A stretch of DNA of 22,617 bases. It comes from a virus. Below are positions 3,132-18,544 of this stretch, in pieces (positions within the stretch are counted from its first letter, which is position 1; every line of letters begins with the position of its first letter). The notes beneath the pieces were generated by a model. The model saw only the letters and a program-made list of their open reading frames with translations. It was not told the DNA's origin and did not search any database. The stretch lies in the IMG/VR virus record IMGVR_UViG_3300043418_000338, positions 1 to 22,617 of that record, one strand, 5' to 3'. The translations under genes were made by a program, and so were the position numbers.

Positions 3132-4190
3132 TCACCCCCAGGTGATCGTTCCCACCACCGGAATTTCTCCGACGGCGGTGGTGACATCCGCGATGGGCGA
3201 GGCCAGGGTGTAATCGGTGACGCCGCTGGCGGCGCCGATCGCGGTCCTGATCTGGCTGAGATAGATGGTGCCGCCTTTCGCGGTGCCCTCGTTGAGCAGC
3301 AGGGTGGCCAGTTGAGTGGCAACCGCCGTGCGGGCGGTGGTGCTGTCCGGCACCAGCGTGATCACCGGATCGAGCGCTTTCCGCGTCGGCACGAACACCG
3401 TGGTGTTGCAGGAGACCGGGCGCTCCGCGTCGATCGCGGTCTGGAGCACGGTGACATCGGCAGCCAGCGGCACGGGCTCGGCGCGGTCGTCCATCATAAA
3501 GGTCAACCCGACGGTGCCAGAGCCCAGCCAGCCGGGGATCACCCAGACCCGGGTGATGCCGGTCAGGGCATCCTTGGCCCAGGATTTGAAATCAGCCTCC
3601 GAGCCGCCCATCGGCGGATTCTGAATGCGCTCCAGCAAACGCGATTTCAGGCTGTCGATGGTTTCGATGTCGGCGCCGCCGCCTAGTCCGTCGCTGCCGA
3701 CGGTGACGGCGGCGGCGACCCCGGAAATCGAGGTGGCCAGCGTCAAGGTACTGCCGGCGTCGCAATCGGTATTGGCACCGACCGATGTGCAGGTGACGGT
3801 CCCGTTGCCGGTGCCATCGGCCAGCACCACGTCGGCGTCGAGCTGATACTGGACCCCGTCGGAACGCGACAACAGGGTGTCGGCCGGCACGGTGGTGCCA
3901 CTGGTGCCGGTGAAGATCACCGCGCCACTGGCGGCGGTCGGGTTGTTGCGATAGCGGCGCCAGATCGAGGCCCAGCGGATCGCCAGATCGTCGTCGGCGG
4001 TATCGTAAATGATCTGGGTCGCCAGCCAGGCGATGTAGCCGTTGAGCTCATCGACCGCGCCCGAGACGGCGCGGGCCAGGATGCCCAGCACCGAGCGCGG
4101 CGGCGTGGCATCCGCCCCCGACAATCGGGTGGCGATGTCGCCCTGATGGCTCTGGATCGTCTCCTTGAGGGTGGGGACCGTGTAGCTCAT
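3132..4190 (-). CDS. Baseplate assembly protein J, Mu gp47-like
   Basis: This is a 352-residue baseplate wedge protein. The start MSYTVPTLKETIQSHQGDIATRL is the Mu gp47 pattern (Y..PTL..L......D). Conserved baseplate-J features follow: PRSVLGILARAVSGAVDELNGYIAWLATQII, DLAIRWASIWRRYRNNPTAASG, then VTVGSDGLGGGADIETIDSLKSRLLERIQNPPMGGSEADFKSWAKDALTGITRVWV, which is the family core, and a C-terminal beta domain ending VVGTITWG. It builds the wedge with gp46 and gp48. The stop TGA overlaps the possible GTG start of gp48. Confidence 0.94.
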   Translation of the reverse strand: MSYTVPTLKETIQSHQGDIATRLSGADATPPRSVLGILARAVSGAVDELNGYIAWLATQIIYDTADDDLAIRWASIWRRYRNNPTAASGAVIFTGTSGTTVPADTLLSRSDGVQYQLDADVVLADGTGNGTVTCTSVGANTDCDAGSTLTLATSISGVAAAVTVGSDGLGGGADIETIDSLKSRLLERIQNPPMGGSEADFKSWAKDALTGITRVWVIPGWLGSGTVGLTFMMDDRAEPVPLAADVTVLQTAIDAERPVSCNTTVFVPTRKALDPVITLVPDSTTARTAVATQLATLLLNEGTAKGGTIYLSQIRTAIGAASGVTDYTLASPIADVTTAVGEIPVVGTITWG

Positions 4191-6322: not shown

Positions 6323-7659
6323 GACGACAGCACCGACAGCGCGCCCGAGCACCAGCCGCCGCGGCCGAGTCCGTTGCGGGCCACGATCTCGTCAGCCCGC
6401 GACGGATCATCATAGAGCCGGGACGCCAGCACCAGGGCCGGTACGACACCGGTCGAGGTGACGGTGGTGACACTGGGCAGATCGGCGGCCCGGGTCGAGA
6501 TATCTTCCACCAGCGCGGCGCGCAGGGATCGGAGGGCAACGTTCGTTTCCGCCGACGACACCATCATCTCGGCATCGAGCTGATCGGCCAACGTATCGCG
6601 GACCGCCAGGGCCTCGGTGGCGGAATCATAGCTGGCGCTGGTGGCGACCCGCACCGCCTCGGTCAGGGCGACCTGTCGGACCAGGGCGGCCAGGGCGGTG
6701 CGGTTGGCGACCGCTTGGCCGACCGAGGTGCCGCTGGTCGGTAGCGCCGCGTCGAAGGTGACGTCACCGCCGCTGGCAGTGCCGGCGGACGGCATCGCGG
6801 CGGCGAGAGCGAGGAACGGCGTCCCCCCCAGCGCCGTCAGCACCCCGTCGGCGCTGCGCGAACTGCGCGCGCCGGCCAGACCAAATCCGGCCGCACCGCC
6901 GGTGGTGTCGCGGAATCCCTGCACCACCGTCACCAGCGCCGCCGCGAGCGATGACGGCGACGAGACCAGGGTTGCCGACCTGCTGCGAGTCGAAGAGATC
7001 TTGCCGAGCACGGCCAGACCGGCGATATCGGCGATCAGGGCGTCGCCGCGACTGGTCAAGGCTGTGAGGTAGGCCTTGGAGATGTCGATCGTCCCCGCGA
7101 CCCGACGTACCGCCAACATGAGTGCATTGAGGTCCTTCGCGGCCAGCGCGGTCAAGGTCAGCAGATCCCACGAACGCCCGGTCGAGGTCAGACTGTAATT
7201 GGCCAGAAACGCTGCCTGGGCGGCAGCGGCGGCAGCAGCGGCGGCGGCACGGGCGGCAGCCGTGGTGTCGGTGGTAACGGTCGGTAAGGCGTTCGACCCC
7301 GGCGGTCCAAAGGTAAGCGAGAAACGGACCATCCGGCCTTCGCGGTCGAAATCGAACATTTCGACCGCGTTGAGCACCACTGCCGGCAGGGCACCGAGAA
7401 ACGGATGCACCAGCATGCCGGCGCCAGGGGCTTCCAGGGCGGCGCGCAGGTGCCGGGCGGCGATCAGGCAATCATCCCCGACCAGGAGCGCCTCAACCCC
7501 CCACTGACGCGCCTTGCGGCCGAGATCCTCGGCATAGGGCTCATCGCGGAGCGGGTATTCATGGACGACGATCCGGCGGCCGAGCGGGCTCTGACCATCC
7601 CGGACCTTGAACGGTACGCCCCGGAAGGACGCGTCGTACAGATGGCGGCGCCAATCCAT
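6319..7659 (-). CDS. N: DNA circularisation / tail protein N (Mu gpN-like)
   Basis: This is a 446-residue protein. The N-terminal domain (1-115) is the DNA_circ_N type: WRRHLYDASFRGVPFKVRDGQSPLGRRIVVHEYPLRDEPYAEDLGRKARQW, then LRAALEAPGAGMLVHPFLGAL and FSLTFGPPG. Despite the Pfam name, in Mu-like phages gpN is a tail/baseplate component. A run of alanines (about 134-150, 7210-7260) joins it to a long Ala/Thr/Leu-rich helical region that ends in LVLASRLYDDPSRADEIVARN, a stretch like the end of related proteins. Start and stop overlap both neighbours (TGATG with the tape measure stop, ATGA with P). It is fully open. Confidence 0.9.
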   Translation of the reverse strand: MDWRRHLYDASFRGVPFKVRDGQSPLGRRIVVHEYPLRDEPYAEDLGRKARQWGVEALLVGDDCLIAARHLRAALEAPGAGMLVHPFLGALPAVVLNAVEMFDFDREGRMVRFSLTFGPPGSNALPTVTTDTTAAARAAAAAAAAAAQAAFLANYSLTSTGRSWDLLTLTALAAKDLNALMLAVRRVAGTIDISKAYLTALTSRGDALIADIAGLAVLGKISSTRSRSATLVSSPSSLAAALVTVVQGFRDTTGGAAGFGLAGARSSRSADGVLTALGGTPFLALAAAMPSAGTASGGDVTFDAALPTSGTSVGQAVANRTALAALVRQVALTEAVRVATSASYDSATEALAVRDTLADQLDAEMMVSSAETNVALRSLRAALVEDISTRAADLPSVTTVTSTGVVPALVLASRLYDDPSRADEIVARNGLGRGGWCSGALSVLSS

Positions 7660-9977
7660 CAGGCCACCCCCGCCATGGTGTGACCGAGATCGAGCCCCAG
7701 CCTGACGCCGGGCGTGTCGCTTCTGGCGCTGGCCCTGGCGTCGCCGGGCAGCCCTTCGATCCGCACCGTGATGGTGCCGTCCAGCGCGGCCTTGGACGGA
7801 GCGCCGGCGAAGGCGGAGGGCACCGGGGCGGACGGACCGCCGGCGCCGGCCAGGGCCTGGGCGGTGGCTGCGCGGCGATTGGCCTCGCCTTCGCGATCGG
7901 CCGGACGCTCATAGAGGCGCGACACCACCGCCCCGGCGGCGGCGGCGTCCTGCGCCTGGGCCAGGGCCCGGCCGGCGCCGCGCTCGCTGCCGGCAGTCAG
8001 CTCGTGATGCACGAACGCCAGTTGCTCATCGAGGGAGGCGCCGCGAATGTCGCGCCCGGCGAACGCGGCGAAGGCCCGTTGCCGGTCGGGATGCCACTGG
8101 GCGATGCCATAGGCCTTGCCGTTGTCGCCCACCGCGCCGGCTTTGAACCCGCTTTCAACCCCCAGATTGGCGGCCAACCCGGCCGCCTGTTCATGGCTCC
8201 AGCCCTTCTTTTCGAAGAAACTCATCGCGTATTTGGCGGCGTCGGATTTGGCCACCGCTGAAACCGCCCCGGAGGCGACAGACTTCACGCCCGACCACGC
8301 CGAACCGGCCACGGACTTAATGCCTTGCCCCGCCCCGGACCATGCTTTGTCTGCCCACCCCAAGGCCTTGCGGATAGGCTCCGGCAGGTCAGATAGCCGC
8401 TCCTTGATTCCTCGAATCAGGCTGTCGATCATATTCCGGCCGGCAGCGGCCAGATCGATGCCGAAGAGATTCTTGATGAGGCCATCCCACGCCTCCGCAA
8501 CCAGAACCCAGGGGTTGAATTCGGCCAGGATTTTGACGATACCCTCGCCCCATGACCGATCGAACGCCGCCTTGACCGCGTCCCACTTGGCCGACCACCA
8601 GGCCGAAATGCCGTCCCAGTTGCGGTAGATCACGTAGACCGCAGCTGCCAGGGCGAGCACTCCCGCGATGATCCAGGTGATCGGGCAGCCCCACAGAGTG
8701 GCGGAGAACACGCCCATCACCGTACTCGCCAGCGGCAGCACGCTGATCAGCGTGCGGAACCCTGACACCGCTCCGCCGATCCAACTGATCGTGTGCCCTA
8801 CCGCCGCGAGGGCGGCGAGAGACATCAGCACATGGCCGAGCGGTCCGGCACAGGCGGACAGGACCTTGGCGAACAGGCCGATGGGGGCGGCGAGGTTCTG
8901 CTGCGCCACCGCCTCGACCGCGTTGCGCAATTCATTGAGCGAGGCGCCGAGGCCTTCCGATGCCTCCTCGGCCTTTTGGAGAAATGCCGCCGGATCGCCT
9001 TCGGCGCTGAAGAGGCGCTCCATCGTCGCCGACTTGCCGGTGGTCTTGATCTCGCCGATCGGGACCTTGAGCGCCTGCCCCAGGTCCTTTCCGAACGCCA
9101 TTTGCGCGGTGTAGGGGTCGCGGACGAAGGCTTCGGTGATCTGTCGGATGATGTCGGTCGCCGACCGCACCCCGCTGCGCGGGTCGCTCGGGTCTTTCCA
9201 GACCTTGACCCCCCACGAGGCCAGGTGCTGCTGATAGCCCTGGTCCTGCAGGTTGGTCAAAAATCCTTCGGTCAGGGTCCTGGCCTGCCGGGCGCTGCCG
9301 GCACCCTTGCCGATCAGACTCATGACCGCCCCGAGTTCCTTTACCGCCCCTTTTCCGGAATGACCCAGGGCGGCATAGGTGGACATCAATAGCGGCGAGG
9401 CGGCGACAAAGGCGTCGATGCCGCCTTCGACGCCAGCAAACTGCAGGCGCAAAGTGGCCAGCGATTGGATCAGTTCATCGGGCGTCTTCAGCGCCATCTT
9501 GGTCTGCATCAGGGCGACCAGTTCCCCGACCTCTGCCGCGTGGCCGCCGAGCAACTGGATCGCCATCGCCATGGTGTTCGCGTTGGCCTCGAACGCCGGC
9601 ACCGAGCCGCCGACTTCCCTGAACGCCTTGAACGCCCCCAGCATGTCGTCACCGGATATCCGCGCCAAATCGGTCGCCGTCCGCATCGTCTGCCGCAACC
9701 GGCCGACCGCGTCCTCCCCCAGCCCGCTGTTGATCCGCATCCGGCGAAAATATTCCTCCTGCGCCGCCACCGCCTTGAACGAGAAGCCCTCGGCGACGAT
9801 CGCGCCGATTCCGGCGAAGGAGTTGGAAAAGCGCTGGCTGGCGTCGCCGGCGGCGCGGGCCAGCCCCCCAAGCTGCGCGGTGGCGCCGTGCAGGGCCGAA
9901 TTGATCCGACCGATCCCGCCGGTAGCCTGATCGACCGCCCGGAACACCAGGGAGAACACCAGATCCCGCGCGGCCAT
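7659..9977 (-). CDS. Tail tape measure protein with C-terminal tail-lysozyme domain
   Basis: This is a 772-residue tape measure that sets tail length and is ejected with DNA. The N-terminal TP901-type core (about 60-320) has the helical VGRLRQTMRTATDLARISGDD style and the GHSGKGAVKELGAVMSLIGKG segment. Hydrophobic segments at about 365-405 and 410-451 (ITWIIAGVLALAAAVYVIYR) precede the NWDGISAWWSAKWDAVKAAF motif common in tape measures. From about 578 to 710 lies a lysozyme-like domain: AMSFFEKKGWSHEQAAGLAANLGVESGFKAGAVGDNGKAYGIAQWH, matching the phage tail lysozyme family, with Glu608 the likely catalytic acid. It would open peptidoglycan during DNA entry. The start has AAGGAGGA 8 bases upstream, in the end of the frameshifted chaperone. 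Confidence 0.94.
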   Translation of the reverse strand: MAARDLVFSLVFRAVDQATGGIGRINSALHGATAQLGGLARAAGDASQRFSNSFAGIGAIVAEGFSFKAVAAQEEYFRRMRINSGLGEDAVGRLRQTMRTATDLARISGDDMLGAFKAFREVGGSVPAFEANANTMAMAIQLLGGHAAEVGELVALMQTKMALKTPDELIQSLATLRLQFAGVEGGIDAFVAASPLLMSTYAALGHSGKGAVKELGAVMSLIGKGAGSARQARTLTEGFLTNLQDQGYQQHLASWGVKVWKDPSDPRSGVRSATDIIRQITEAFVRDPYTAQMAFGKDLGQALKVPIGEIKTTGKSATMERLFSAEGDPAAFLQKAEEASEGLGASLNELRNAVEAVAQQNLAAPIGLFAKVLSACAGPLGHVLMSLAALAAVGHTISWIGGAVSGFRTLISVLPLASTVMGVFSATLWGCPITWIIAGVLALAAAVYVIYRNWDGISAWWSAKWDAVKAAFDRSWGEGIVKILAEFNPWVLVAEAWDGLIKNLFGIDLAAAGRNMIDSLIRGIKERLSDLPEPIRKALGWADKAWSGAGQGIKSVAGSAWSGVKSVASGAVSAVAKSDAAKYAMSFFEKKGWSHEQAAGLAANLGVESGFKAGAVGDNGKAYGIAQWHPDRQRAFAAFAGRDIRGASLDEQLAFVHHELTAGSERGAGRALAQAQDAAAAGAVVSRLYERPADREGEANRRAATAQALAGAGGPSAPVPSAFAGAPSKAALDGTITVRIEGLPGDARASARSDTPGVRLGLDLGHTMAGVA

Positions 9978-9980
9978 TGG

Positions 9981-10723
9981 TCAGTCCTCCTTACCCTGCA
10001 TCGCCGCCCAGACCTCGCAGGCGACTCCATGCCACGTCAGCAACTCGTCCGCGTCCCAATCCTCAATCGCCGGAATCGGCGTGTGCAGGATCGCCGCGAT
10101 CTCGCCGGCTAGGCGCCGCCAGTCGGTCGGGAAAGCCCCAAAAAACGGGCGAAGATCCGACCCAGCGCGCTGAAATCCTCGCCATCGAGGCCGTCGAGAT
10201 GCGGCGGCGCGATCCCGGTCAGCTCGGCGACGATCCACAAGGTCTTGTCGACATCCGACCTGCCCTTGATCCGCTTGATCTGCCTGCCTTTCGGCCGGGC
10301 CATGCGGATGGTTTCCAGCATCTTCCCGGCCACCGGCAGCGGCCGGATCAGGATCCAGCTCGCGGAGCCGTCGTCGTTGAGGGCGAACCTGTCGGGATAT
10401 TGGTCGGCGATGTCGAGGCCCGACACCCCCATGAAGGCGCTGAAGATCCGCCCCAGCGCGGTGGTGTCCTCGCCATCGGCCTCGTCAAGCACCTCGGCCG
10501 ACAACCCGGACAGTCGGGCCAGGATCGCCGAAGTCCGCTCGGCGTCGGAGCCGGCGTTGCCGGCCTTGAGATCGCGCGCCATCGGCCGGCGCAGGGGCAC
10601 CGCCTCGATCACGCCGCCCTCGGTCAGCAACGGATCGCACAACCTCCAGAGGACCGAGCCGTCGTCGTTGAGCGTGAGCCGGTCCGGATATTGCTCGCGC
10701 AGATCGTCAAGAGTTTCGGCCAT
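9981..10723 (-). CDS. Frameshifted tail assembly chaperone fusion (gp41-gp42 type)
   Basis: This is the predicted -1 ribosomal frameshift product. Translation of the gp41-like frame to Leu195, a slip on T TTT TTG (10139-10145), and reading of the -1 frame from 10139 adds 52 residues (GAFPTDWRRLAGEIAAILHT onward to AMQGKED), 247 in total. The added part has PAIEDWDADELLTWHGVACEVW, the helix pattern typical of the second half of tail chaperones (lambda gpT, P2 E' and Mu gp42 class). The -1 frame has no ATG of its own that could produce this tail, and the tape measure starts 3 bases after its TGA. In known systems the short and long forms are made in a fixed ratio and bind the tape measure. The shift itself is inferred. 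Confidence 0.85.
10109..10723 (-). CDS. Tail assembly chaperone, Mu gp41-like, with tandem-duplicated domain
   Basis: This is a 204-residue chaperone for tape measure and tube assembly. It consists of two copies of one domain, 97 residues apart: 11-99 and 108-196. Both have QYPDR, LNDDGS, W, a basic RP...R patch, then a helical part ending DGED..ALGRIF..F.G. By my hand count 42 of 89 aligned residues are identical, without gaps. Mu gp41-type proteins I know of carry one such domain, so the length is about double. Near the end of copy two lies a slippery T TTT TTG (10139-10145) in the correct phase for a -1 shift, giving a longer product (separate entry). An AAGGAG sits 7 bases before the ATG. 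Confidence 0.9.
   Translation of the reverse strand: MAETLDDLREQYPDRLTLNDDGSVLWRLCDPLLTEGGVIEAVPLRRPMARDLKAGNAGSDAERTSAILARLSGLSAEVLDEADGEDTTALGRIFSAFMGVSGLDIADQYPDRFALNDDGSASWILIRPLPVAGKMLETIRMARPKGRQIKRIKGRSDVDKTLWIVAELTGIAPPHLDGLDGEDFSALGRIFARFLGLSRPTGGA
10139..10145 (-). other. Programmed -1 ribosomal frameshift site T TTT TTG
   Basis: The minus-strand codons are CGT TTT TTG GGG, so the heptamer T TTT TTG is in exact X XXY YYZ phase with the gp41 frame. Re-pairing one base back gives TTT TTT, then GGG GCT TTC in the -1 frame, which stays open for 52 codons. I see no strong downstream hairpin, only short GC-rich pairings. Confidence 0.85.
10139..10693 (-). repeat. Tandem duplication within the tail chaperone gene, 291-bp period
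   Basis: Two direct copies begin at 10693 and 10402. DNA similarity is still visible in places: GTCGTCGTTGAG on the plus strand occurs at about 10660 and about 10371. Divergence elsewhere says the duplication is old. Confidence 0.8.
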
Positions 10724-10732
10724 GACGGCTCC

Positions 10733-11101
10733 TTATGATTCGTCGACGTTGTCGGGATCGCAGGCGAAGGTGACCTGGATCTTGCCTTCCTTGACGCCCA
10801 GGTCACCGACCTCCTGCACCCAGGCGCCGGCCATGGTGAAAACCGGCCCGGAATCGCATTGAAAGACGACGGTGATGTCGGTCATGTCGGCGAATGCCTT
10901 CACCAACAGACCGGCGCTGTGGAAGAAGCTGGCCACCACGGTGGTTTCCATCACTTCTTCGGTGAAGCCGTAGACCGAAGCGCCCTTGACGGTATTGCGT
11001 TTGACCCCGATCAGGCCGGTCAGCTTGGCGTCGTCGCCGCTCTCGTAGAGCACACCGTCGACGTAGATCCAGGCGCGGCCGGTATAGTGTCGCTTGCCCA
11101 T
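10733..11101 (-). CDS. M: Tail tube protein, Mu gpM-like
   Basis: This is a 122-residue tail tube subunit, similar in size to Mu M. It opens GKRHYTGRAWIYVDGVLYESGDDAKL and has GVKRNTVKGASVYGFTEEVMETTVVASFFHSAGLLV, a strand-rich pattern with the conserved V.G..V.GYTE.V... type segment, then QCDSGPVFTMAGAWVQEVGDLGVKEGKIQVTF. It stacks as hexameric rings inside the sheath, with length set by the tape measure. A full AAGGAGG lies 5 bases before the ATG, between it and the sheath stop, suggesting high expression as needed for a major tail protein. Confidence 0.92.
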   Translation of the reverse strand: MGKRHYTGRAWIYVDGVLYESGDDAKLTGLIGVKRNTVKGASVYGFTEEVMETTVVASFFHSAGLLVKAFADMTDITVVFQCDSGPVFTMAGAWVQEVGDLGVKEGKIQVTFACDPDNVDES

Positions 11102-17326: not shown

Positions 17327-18544
17327 TCATCGTGACCAGAGCAACCGACCGGCCCGCAGACTGTTGAGATAGCCGGGCCGGTTGGAGGGCATGAACGTCC
17401 AACCGTGGAAGAAGCCGCCGCCGGCATCGACCACCAGGATCAAGCCTTTTCCCCCGTCTCCTCCGACCACCTTGACCAGGCGCTTGCGCAGGATCACCCG
17501 GCCCGTGCCCTTGTGGCGCAGGAACATCGCCCAGATTTCCGCCGGCGCCGTCAGCAGTTCGGGCAGCAACGGCACCCAGGGCGACCGCGCCAGGTCAAGG
17601 TGACGGGCCAGCGCCGGGGCATCGACCAGCAGGCTGGAGCCGTCCGGCAGCGGCACCGCGACCTGATCGCCGCCCAATGCCGTGGCGATCTGGCGAGCAA
17701 GCTGATCGACGGTGCCGGCTTTCGGCCCCAGCTTGGCCTCGGGCGGGTCCACCGGCAGATGCTCCGGCCGCTTGGCCGATTGCCAGTTGCCCGGGGTCAA
17801 CGGCTCCCAGGCGTCGGCCTTCCGCTGCCGCCACGCCTCCATCTCCGCCTCGGGCAACTGCCGCCCGAACGCCGACTCGCCGACGGATTGGCCCCAGCCC
17901 GGATCGACCCCGGCCGGCACCTCGATCGTCACCGGCCCGGACGAGGTGGAGAGCGTCACCGGGCGCGAGTCTTCCGCCGGCGCCTGATCGGGACCGGACT
18001 TGCCCAACGCCTTCAGATCGCGCCGGCTCAACGCCTCCCAGCGGCATTCGCAGCCCCAGCCATTGGGGGTGGCATGGGTCCGGATCCACGGATCATCCGC
18101 CGCCAGCACCAGCCCGTCCCACGCCTGATGCTCGGGGCGGGGATGGGCCACGCTGTCGTCATGGACATAGCGCCACCACGGCCGATAGCGCGCCACGTCG
18201 GGATCGGTCATCTGCTTCCACCGCCCGGCGGCGGCGGCGGTGCGCAGATTGGTGTCGTAGATCAGCTTCGACCGCCAGTTGCGCGAGCCGTTGTAGCTCC
18301 AGCCATGCTTGGCGACGATGCTGTCGAAGTCCCGACGGAACTCCTCCAGCGTGGTGCCCTGGCTGATCACCTTGTCGAGCGCGGTGCGGAAATCGACCAG
18401 GATCGCCTCCCGCGTCGCCCCGGCCACGGTGAAGGCCCGGGCATGCTGCCCCCCGATCATGTCGGTCCAGCGCGCGGTGGGCATGTTGACCTTCTGGCGG
18501 AAATGCTCGATCGCCTCCCGGAACGGCAGGCCGTCGCCGCTCAT
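17327..18544 (-). CDS. F: Phage Mu F-like head morphogenesis protein with toxin-like (PBECR-type) C-terminal domain
   Basis: This is a 405-residue minor head protein. Residues about 1-175 are the MuF domain: LPFREAIEHFRQKV, then the helical GTTLEEFRRDF region and the signature RPEHQAWDGLVL..DDPW..THATPNGWGCECRWEAL (136-171), with the paired cysteines Cys165 and Cys167. MuF proteins bind the portal and are injected or packaged with the DNA. After a Pro-rich linker (about 185-280) comes a compact C-terminal domain, about 285-405, containing GTGRVILRKRLVKVV, GLILVVDAGGGFFHGWTFM and NRPGYLNSLRAGRLLW. That pattern resembles the phage Barnase-EndoU-ColicinE5/D-RelE (PBECR) nuclease domains often fused to MuF. 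The C-terminal call is recognition from sequence style and needs a profile search. No immunity gene is evident next door. Confidence 0.88.
   Translation of the reverse strand: MSGDGLPFREAIEHFRQKVNMPTARWTDMIGGQHARAFTVAGATREAILVDFRTALDKVISQGTTLEEFRRDFDSIVAKHGWSYNGSRNWRSKLIYDTNLRTAAAAGRWKQMTDPDVARYRPWWRYVHDDSVAHPRPEHQAWDGLVLAADDPWIRTHATPNGWGCECRWEALSRRDLKALGKSGPDQAPAEDSRPVTLSTSSGPVTIEVPAGVDPGWGQSVGESAFGRQLPEAEMEAWRQRKADAWEPLTPGNWQSAKRPEHLPVDPPEAKLGPKAGTVDQLARQIATALGGDQVAVPLPDGSSLLVDAPALARHLDLARSPWVPLLPELLTAPAEIWAMFLRHKGTGRVILRKRLVKVVGGDGGKGLILVVDAGGGFFHGWTFMPSNRPGYLNSLRAGRLLWSR

Follow-up and report, generated by a model that had tools for sequence, protein, structure and literature searches.

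The tail assembly chaperones of the Phage_TAC_7 family (PF10109; P2 gpE / Mu gp41 / 14 type), described in Pfam as 'tail assembly chaperone proteins, E, or 41 or 14', are mostly proteins of one domain of about 80 residues. In phage lambda, gpG and a few copies of the frameshifted gpGT coat the tape measure, and the T part recruits the tube protein (PMC5009743). The ratio of the short chaperone product to the frameshifted one matters (PMC4493119), and the Mu chaperone uses a -2 shift (PMC5009743). Chaperones of the tail assembly chaperone fold, which include 3FGX and HK97 2OB9, form rings or spirals of adjacent subunits (PMC9603447). Two questions about these systems concern the spacing of the chaperones along the tape measure and the reason why the short and the frameshifted product must be made in a fixed ratio.

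Unlike most members of this family, the protein described here carries two such domains. Its gene lies in a virus record of 22,617 bases, called the window in what follows. The remainder of the window is a head and tail module of Mu type, with genes for Mu portal, Mu F, Mu gp37, sheath, DNA circularisation protein and baseplate. The chaperone gene (10109..10723, minus strand, 204 aa), supported by ORF calling, its two PF10109 stretches and the AlphaFold2 model, stands between the tail tube gene upstream (10733..11101, minus strand; PF10618) and the gene of a 772-aa tape-measure protein downstream (7659..9977, minus strand; PF18013 and tape-measure PHROGs). In the tape measure, residues 580-708 form a phage tail lysozyme domain, and the Mu F-like head protein of the module (17327-18544, minus strand) ends in a C-terminal PBECR2 nuclease-toxin domain (PF18810, residues 285-403). 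The chaperone has in common with Phage_TAC_7 the match of each of its halves, the gene order, and an overlapping extension in the -1 frame.

A tandem duplication of the chaperone domain had been proposed in the initial annotation from a hand count of 42 identities, which was right to within one: compared with itself at an offset of 97 residues, the protein gives 43 identities, and at the other offsets from 90 to 104 it gives at most 11. Based on PF10109 and the self-alignment, copy 1 comprises residues 7-98 (10430..10705, minus strand; profile match 25-98) and copy 2 comprises residues 104-195 (10139..10414, minus strand; profile match 121-195). The two copies align locally with a score of 213, whereas 2000 shuffles average 27 and reach 55 at most. 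Pfam reports PF10109 twice in the protein (71.7 bits for the whole), and when the halves were searched singly, not one but both of them exceeded the curated cut-off of 25 bits (34.7 bits for copy 1 and 40.1 bits for copy 2). Since the copies are only 43% identical, they are too different to be the product of an assembly error, and the fused two-domain chaperone is confirmed as real in the window phage. The repeat unit spans nearly the whole of a single-domain gene, including the N-terminal segment, so the double looks like a tandem duplication of the whole gene joined in frame.

The AlphaFold2 model, built from a nine-sequence alignment (pLDDT 88.3, pTM 0.73), presents one order of structural elements twice with a period of 97 residues. 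In BFVD it is matched best by a protein of 193 aa, named 'tail assembly chaperone protein', whose alignment extends across both domains (E 1.4e-6), and next by the chaperone of Burkholderia phage Mica; the BFVD chaperones have E values of about 1e-6 and a probability of 1.00. For the PDB, the VIA list gives 3FGX (Z 6.4) and HK97 gp13 2OB9 (Z 4.6), values that are modest (below 8) and well above the unrelated rows that follow at 2.7. Foldseek alone found no significant match to the model in the PDB, and the sequence search among solved structures returned one match, which was non-significant. We assigned the protein to the tail assembly chaperone fold on the BFVD and VIA matches.

Used as a query in viral contigs, phages and plasmids, the protein found few or no relatives, and for this reason the sheath and PF10109 were used to reach them. 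By sheath identity, the nearest loci are L008, from a Rhodospirillales MAG (76%), and L004, from IMG/VR (71%). In both of them the chaperone has one domain and 108 aa, followed by a -1 extension. Copy 1 of the window is 51-52% identical to each of these chaperones, and copy 2 is 63% identical to that of L008 and 51% identical to that of L004.

The initial annotation had also placed a slippery site in the second copy only, and this is what we find. Copy 2 ends in the heptamer T TTT TTG (10139..10145, minus strand), a predicted site of -1 frameshifting that single-domain L008 has at the same place. Codons 193-195 read CGT TTT TTG, with the slippery run at codons 194-195, and the -1 frame continues to a stop at 9981. 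The homologous site ending copy 1, C TTC ATG (10430..10436, minus strand), is by sequence comparison not slippery, its codons TTC ATG containing no slippery heptamer. In the whole gene, the sole other match to X XXY YYZ overlaps the T TTT TTG run itself. The T-like extension in the -1 frame (9981..10139, minus strand; 52 aa plus stop) would yield a predicted minor product of 247 aa. It is conserved in L008 (72% identical), L004 (72%) and the viral contig locus L014 (38%), identities that make it very likely coding. The slippery site and the overlapping -1 extension, with frameshifting predicted, agree with what is expected of a PF10109-type chaperone. No RNA structure that could aid frameshifting was found downstream of the heptamer beyond that of shuffles (z = -0.01). 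In L004, the corresponding site (2180-2210) reads CAT TTT ATG, without a clean slippery heptamer, yet the extension is 72% identical; its frameshift may be inefficient or may use a single-tRNA slip.

No stop interrupts the -1 frame between the end of copy 1 and the extension, so a ribosome shifting there would make domain 1, about 97 out-of-frame residues and then the extension. Because such a shift would swap domain 2 for out-of-frame sequence, the slippery site would be kept in copy 2 only, and a copy 1 without it is what a working double would need. Most of the other doubles that we identified follow the same arrangement: in 12 of the 14 doubles (the window, L014, L066, L067, L068, L069, L086, L087, L088, L089, L105 and L106) the last domain finishes with a T TTT TTN heptamer, and in none of the 14 does the first. 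In L069 and L086, other heptamers (G GGG GGC and A AAT TTC, respectively) lie a few codons ahead of the first domain's end; the doubles of L065 and L085 have no slippery heptamer at all. An internal restart at the ATG ending copy 1 was also considered and set aside, as the other doubles do not share it and no good ribosome site was seen by eye.

The double arrangement recurs among relatives. In the order of L008 (317 genomes), the PF10109 search returned 63 rows, counted as 59 loci, five of them double: four appear as pairs of rows sharing a frame, and L069 was recognised with a profile built in this study. In a sample of the bacterial phylum (398 genomes), there were 69 PF10109 rows, counted as 64 loci, at least six of which are double: five row pairs together with L069, which is also counted in the order set. 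The arrangement is therefore shared by about one in ten relatives in the phylum, the majority being single-domain. It is important to note that the profiles built here were trained partly on these loci, and that the independent checks are Pfam, which confirms the doubles L065, L066, L067 and L069, and a profile made from single-domain proteins only. L014 provides another double, and among isolated phages two PF10109 stretches are present in ORF22 of Halomonas phage phiHAP-1 and gp30 of Vibrio phage VP882. In the Aeromonas phage relatives (196-208 aa), the second domain alone is clear, and tblastn of L067 (a double of the L014 group) and of L066 found no match in isolated phages. The concern that most relatives might be doubles of about 200 residues, raised in the initial annotation, is borne out only in part, since doubles are a recurrent minority variant; for the same reason, the window's double is not unique.

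The proteins of L090, L092, L093, L098 and L100 (about 175-205 aa) have one clear C-terminal chaperone domain preceded by 80-125 unmatched N-terminal residues, and some of them may be doubles with a diverged first domain or may have wrong starts. In L095 (minus strand), two chaperone-like ORFs follow one another without being joined (3174-3740 and 3896-4174 in strand coordinates); T TTT TTG and an extension belong to the first, while the second has a start of its own. According to the profile built here, this pair would correspond to a double that is not fused, although the second ORF goes unreported by Pfam.

The domain tree groups both window copies with L004 and L008 (support 100) and places L014, L067, L068 and L069 as their sister group, within which the first domains and the second domains are each monophyletic (100 in both cases). 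A single old duplication common to the window and L014 groups was rejected (AU test, p = 0.023). A recent duplication restricted to the window, with the copies as sisters, gave p = 0.040 in the AU test and p = 0.30 in the SH test. Window copy 1 lies outside the cluster of L004, L008 and copy 2, which points either to a duplication of greater age, one copy of which was then lost in the single-domain relatives, or to fast change in copy 1. In the set formed by phiHAP-1, VP882 and L087-L089, the first domains group with a support of 99 and the second with 98; for L086 the support of the domains is 96, and the two domains of L085 are 60% identical to each other. All of these look like further separate duplications. 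L066 is placed weakly. The two domains of L065 (G205), a locus without a slippery heptamer, fall in different parts of the tree, and it is possibly a fusion of unlike chaperones. Overall, the trees indicate that doubles arose several separate times. With respect to constraint, the one close set, L087-L089, has pN/pS values of 0.06-0.31, both domains being constrained. In the L014 group, the values are about 0.5-1.0 in both copies, which does not demonstrate constraint there.

Considering this evidence, we conclude that the gene probably encodes a working tail assembly chaperone of the PF10109 type, each subunit being a covalent dimer that must carry the frameshift site at its end. A tandem duplication of the whole gene, joined in frame, would have produced a TAC-TAC subunit of 204 aa, the main product, which would bind the tape measure. 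A minority of ribosomes would slip -1 at the T TTT TTG ending copy 2, adding the 52-residue extension to give a TAC-TAC-T product of 247 aa, and this extension may recruit the tube protein as in lambda gpGT. One chain would then fill two adjacent positions of the chaperone spiral. We infer the frameshift, as well as the binding or coating of the tape measure by the double chaperone. A double that serves a longer tape measure, and hence a longer tail, is very unlikely. The tape-measure medians lean slightly that way (772 aa with doubles versus 700 aa with singles), but the Mann-Whitney test gives p = 0.14, where three proteins from Aeromonas and Vibrio whose first domain is weak were counted as single, and the 772 aa of the window's tape measure fall short of the 785 aa in single-domain L008, the two being 67% identical over its length. 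The initial annotation had suggested that each double molecule could cover twice the tape-measure length. As the tape measures are not longer, the double would imply either that each tape measure takes up fewer chains or that the number of binding domains for each T extension is doubled at an unchanged slippage rate.

The lack of change in tape-measure length would also fit a neutral doubling, that is, a tandem duplication fixed by drift without any gain and lost again in some lines, of which L008 and L004 may be examples. The position of copy 1 outside L004, L008 and copy 2, if it reflects an older duplication followed by loss, agrees with this as well. We nevertheless consider neutrality rather unlikely, since both copies are still recognisable across widely separated phages with doubles and both are constrained in L087-L089. 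The same set weighs against the suggestion of the initial annotation that one copy could have taken a new job, considered here as copy 1 binding, for example, another tail part or regulating assembly while copy 2 remains the tape-measure chaperone: in L087-L089, copy 1 is the more constrained of the two. Copy 1 of the window does have the longer branch in the tree (0.76 versus 0.46) and is the more diverged on the singles-only profile (44.6 versus 58.7 bits), where copy 1 is also the lower in the phiHAP-1-like group. However, copy 1 scores as high as copy 2 or higher in L065, L066, L067, L068, L085 and L086, and copy 1 of the window passes the Pfam cut-off on its own and has the same predicted fold. 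With both copies keeping the family profile and the predicted fold, a new job for copy 1 is unsupported and we regard it as improbable. Beyond the window, we propose only tentatively that covalent dimerisation of these chaperones may have evolved independently several times (in the window, L014 and phiHAP-1/VP882 groups, L086 and L085), with the T6 site, where present, only at the end of the last domain. If true, this would point to selection favouring two adjacent subunits linked to each other on the tape measure or, alternatively, a doubled number of binding domains for each T extension at a given rate of slippage.

A natural covalent dimer in the isolated phages phiHAP-1 and VP882, together with close single-domain relatives, offers a direct test of whether chaperone subunits lie side by side, and lets one ask whether the ratio of domains or that of molecules counts. 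It also carries a warning for annotation: an annotated 'tail protein' of about 200 aa found at this position can in fact be a double chaperone, and its frameshift product then goes missing from the annotation.

Compared with known systems, the window protein resembles lambda gpG/gpGT in its scheme, that of a frameshift-extended chaperone (PMC5009743), and lambda has a single G domain. The orthologues of L008 and L004 are 51-63% identical to the window copies and have the same extension, but one domain in 108 aa. The 'gp41' label of the initial annotation is loose: Mu gp41 belongs to the sister Pfam model PF23746 (Gp41_Mu; 119.5 bits), which does not report the window protein at E 0.1, and it uses a -2 shift, whereas the window extension is in the -1 frame. 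Mu gp41 (L108, 6855-7289) misses the PF10109 cut-off by 0.3 bits, although the description of that family names '41'. Counterparts in architecture are phiHAP-1 ORF22 (224 aa) and VP882 gp30 (195 aa), which, like the window protein, have two PF10109 stretches, lie between tube and tape measure, and end in T TTT TTG after the second domain but not after the first; unlike it, they come by the tree from a separate duplication and are annotated merely as 'tail protein'. PHROG 166 ('tail protein', 201 positions) covers both domains of VP882 gp30 in one stretch, whereas the window protein matches the PHROG as two separate stretches, and the model of BFVD A0A8S5V8Z8 aligns across both domains of the window protein. 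As PHROG 166 spans both domains, the double form was already within public libraries, uncommented. The initial annotation knew of no described double gp41, and we likewise found no paper on double TAC_7 proteins in the mainly open-access literature searched; the architecture itself has been on record in isolated phages since phiHAP-1 and VP882 were deposited. The double form is thus an unremarked variant rather than one new in kind, and its recurrent, seemingly independent doubling is the part worth following.
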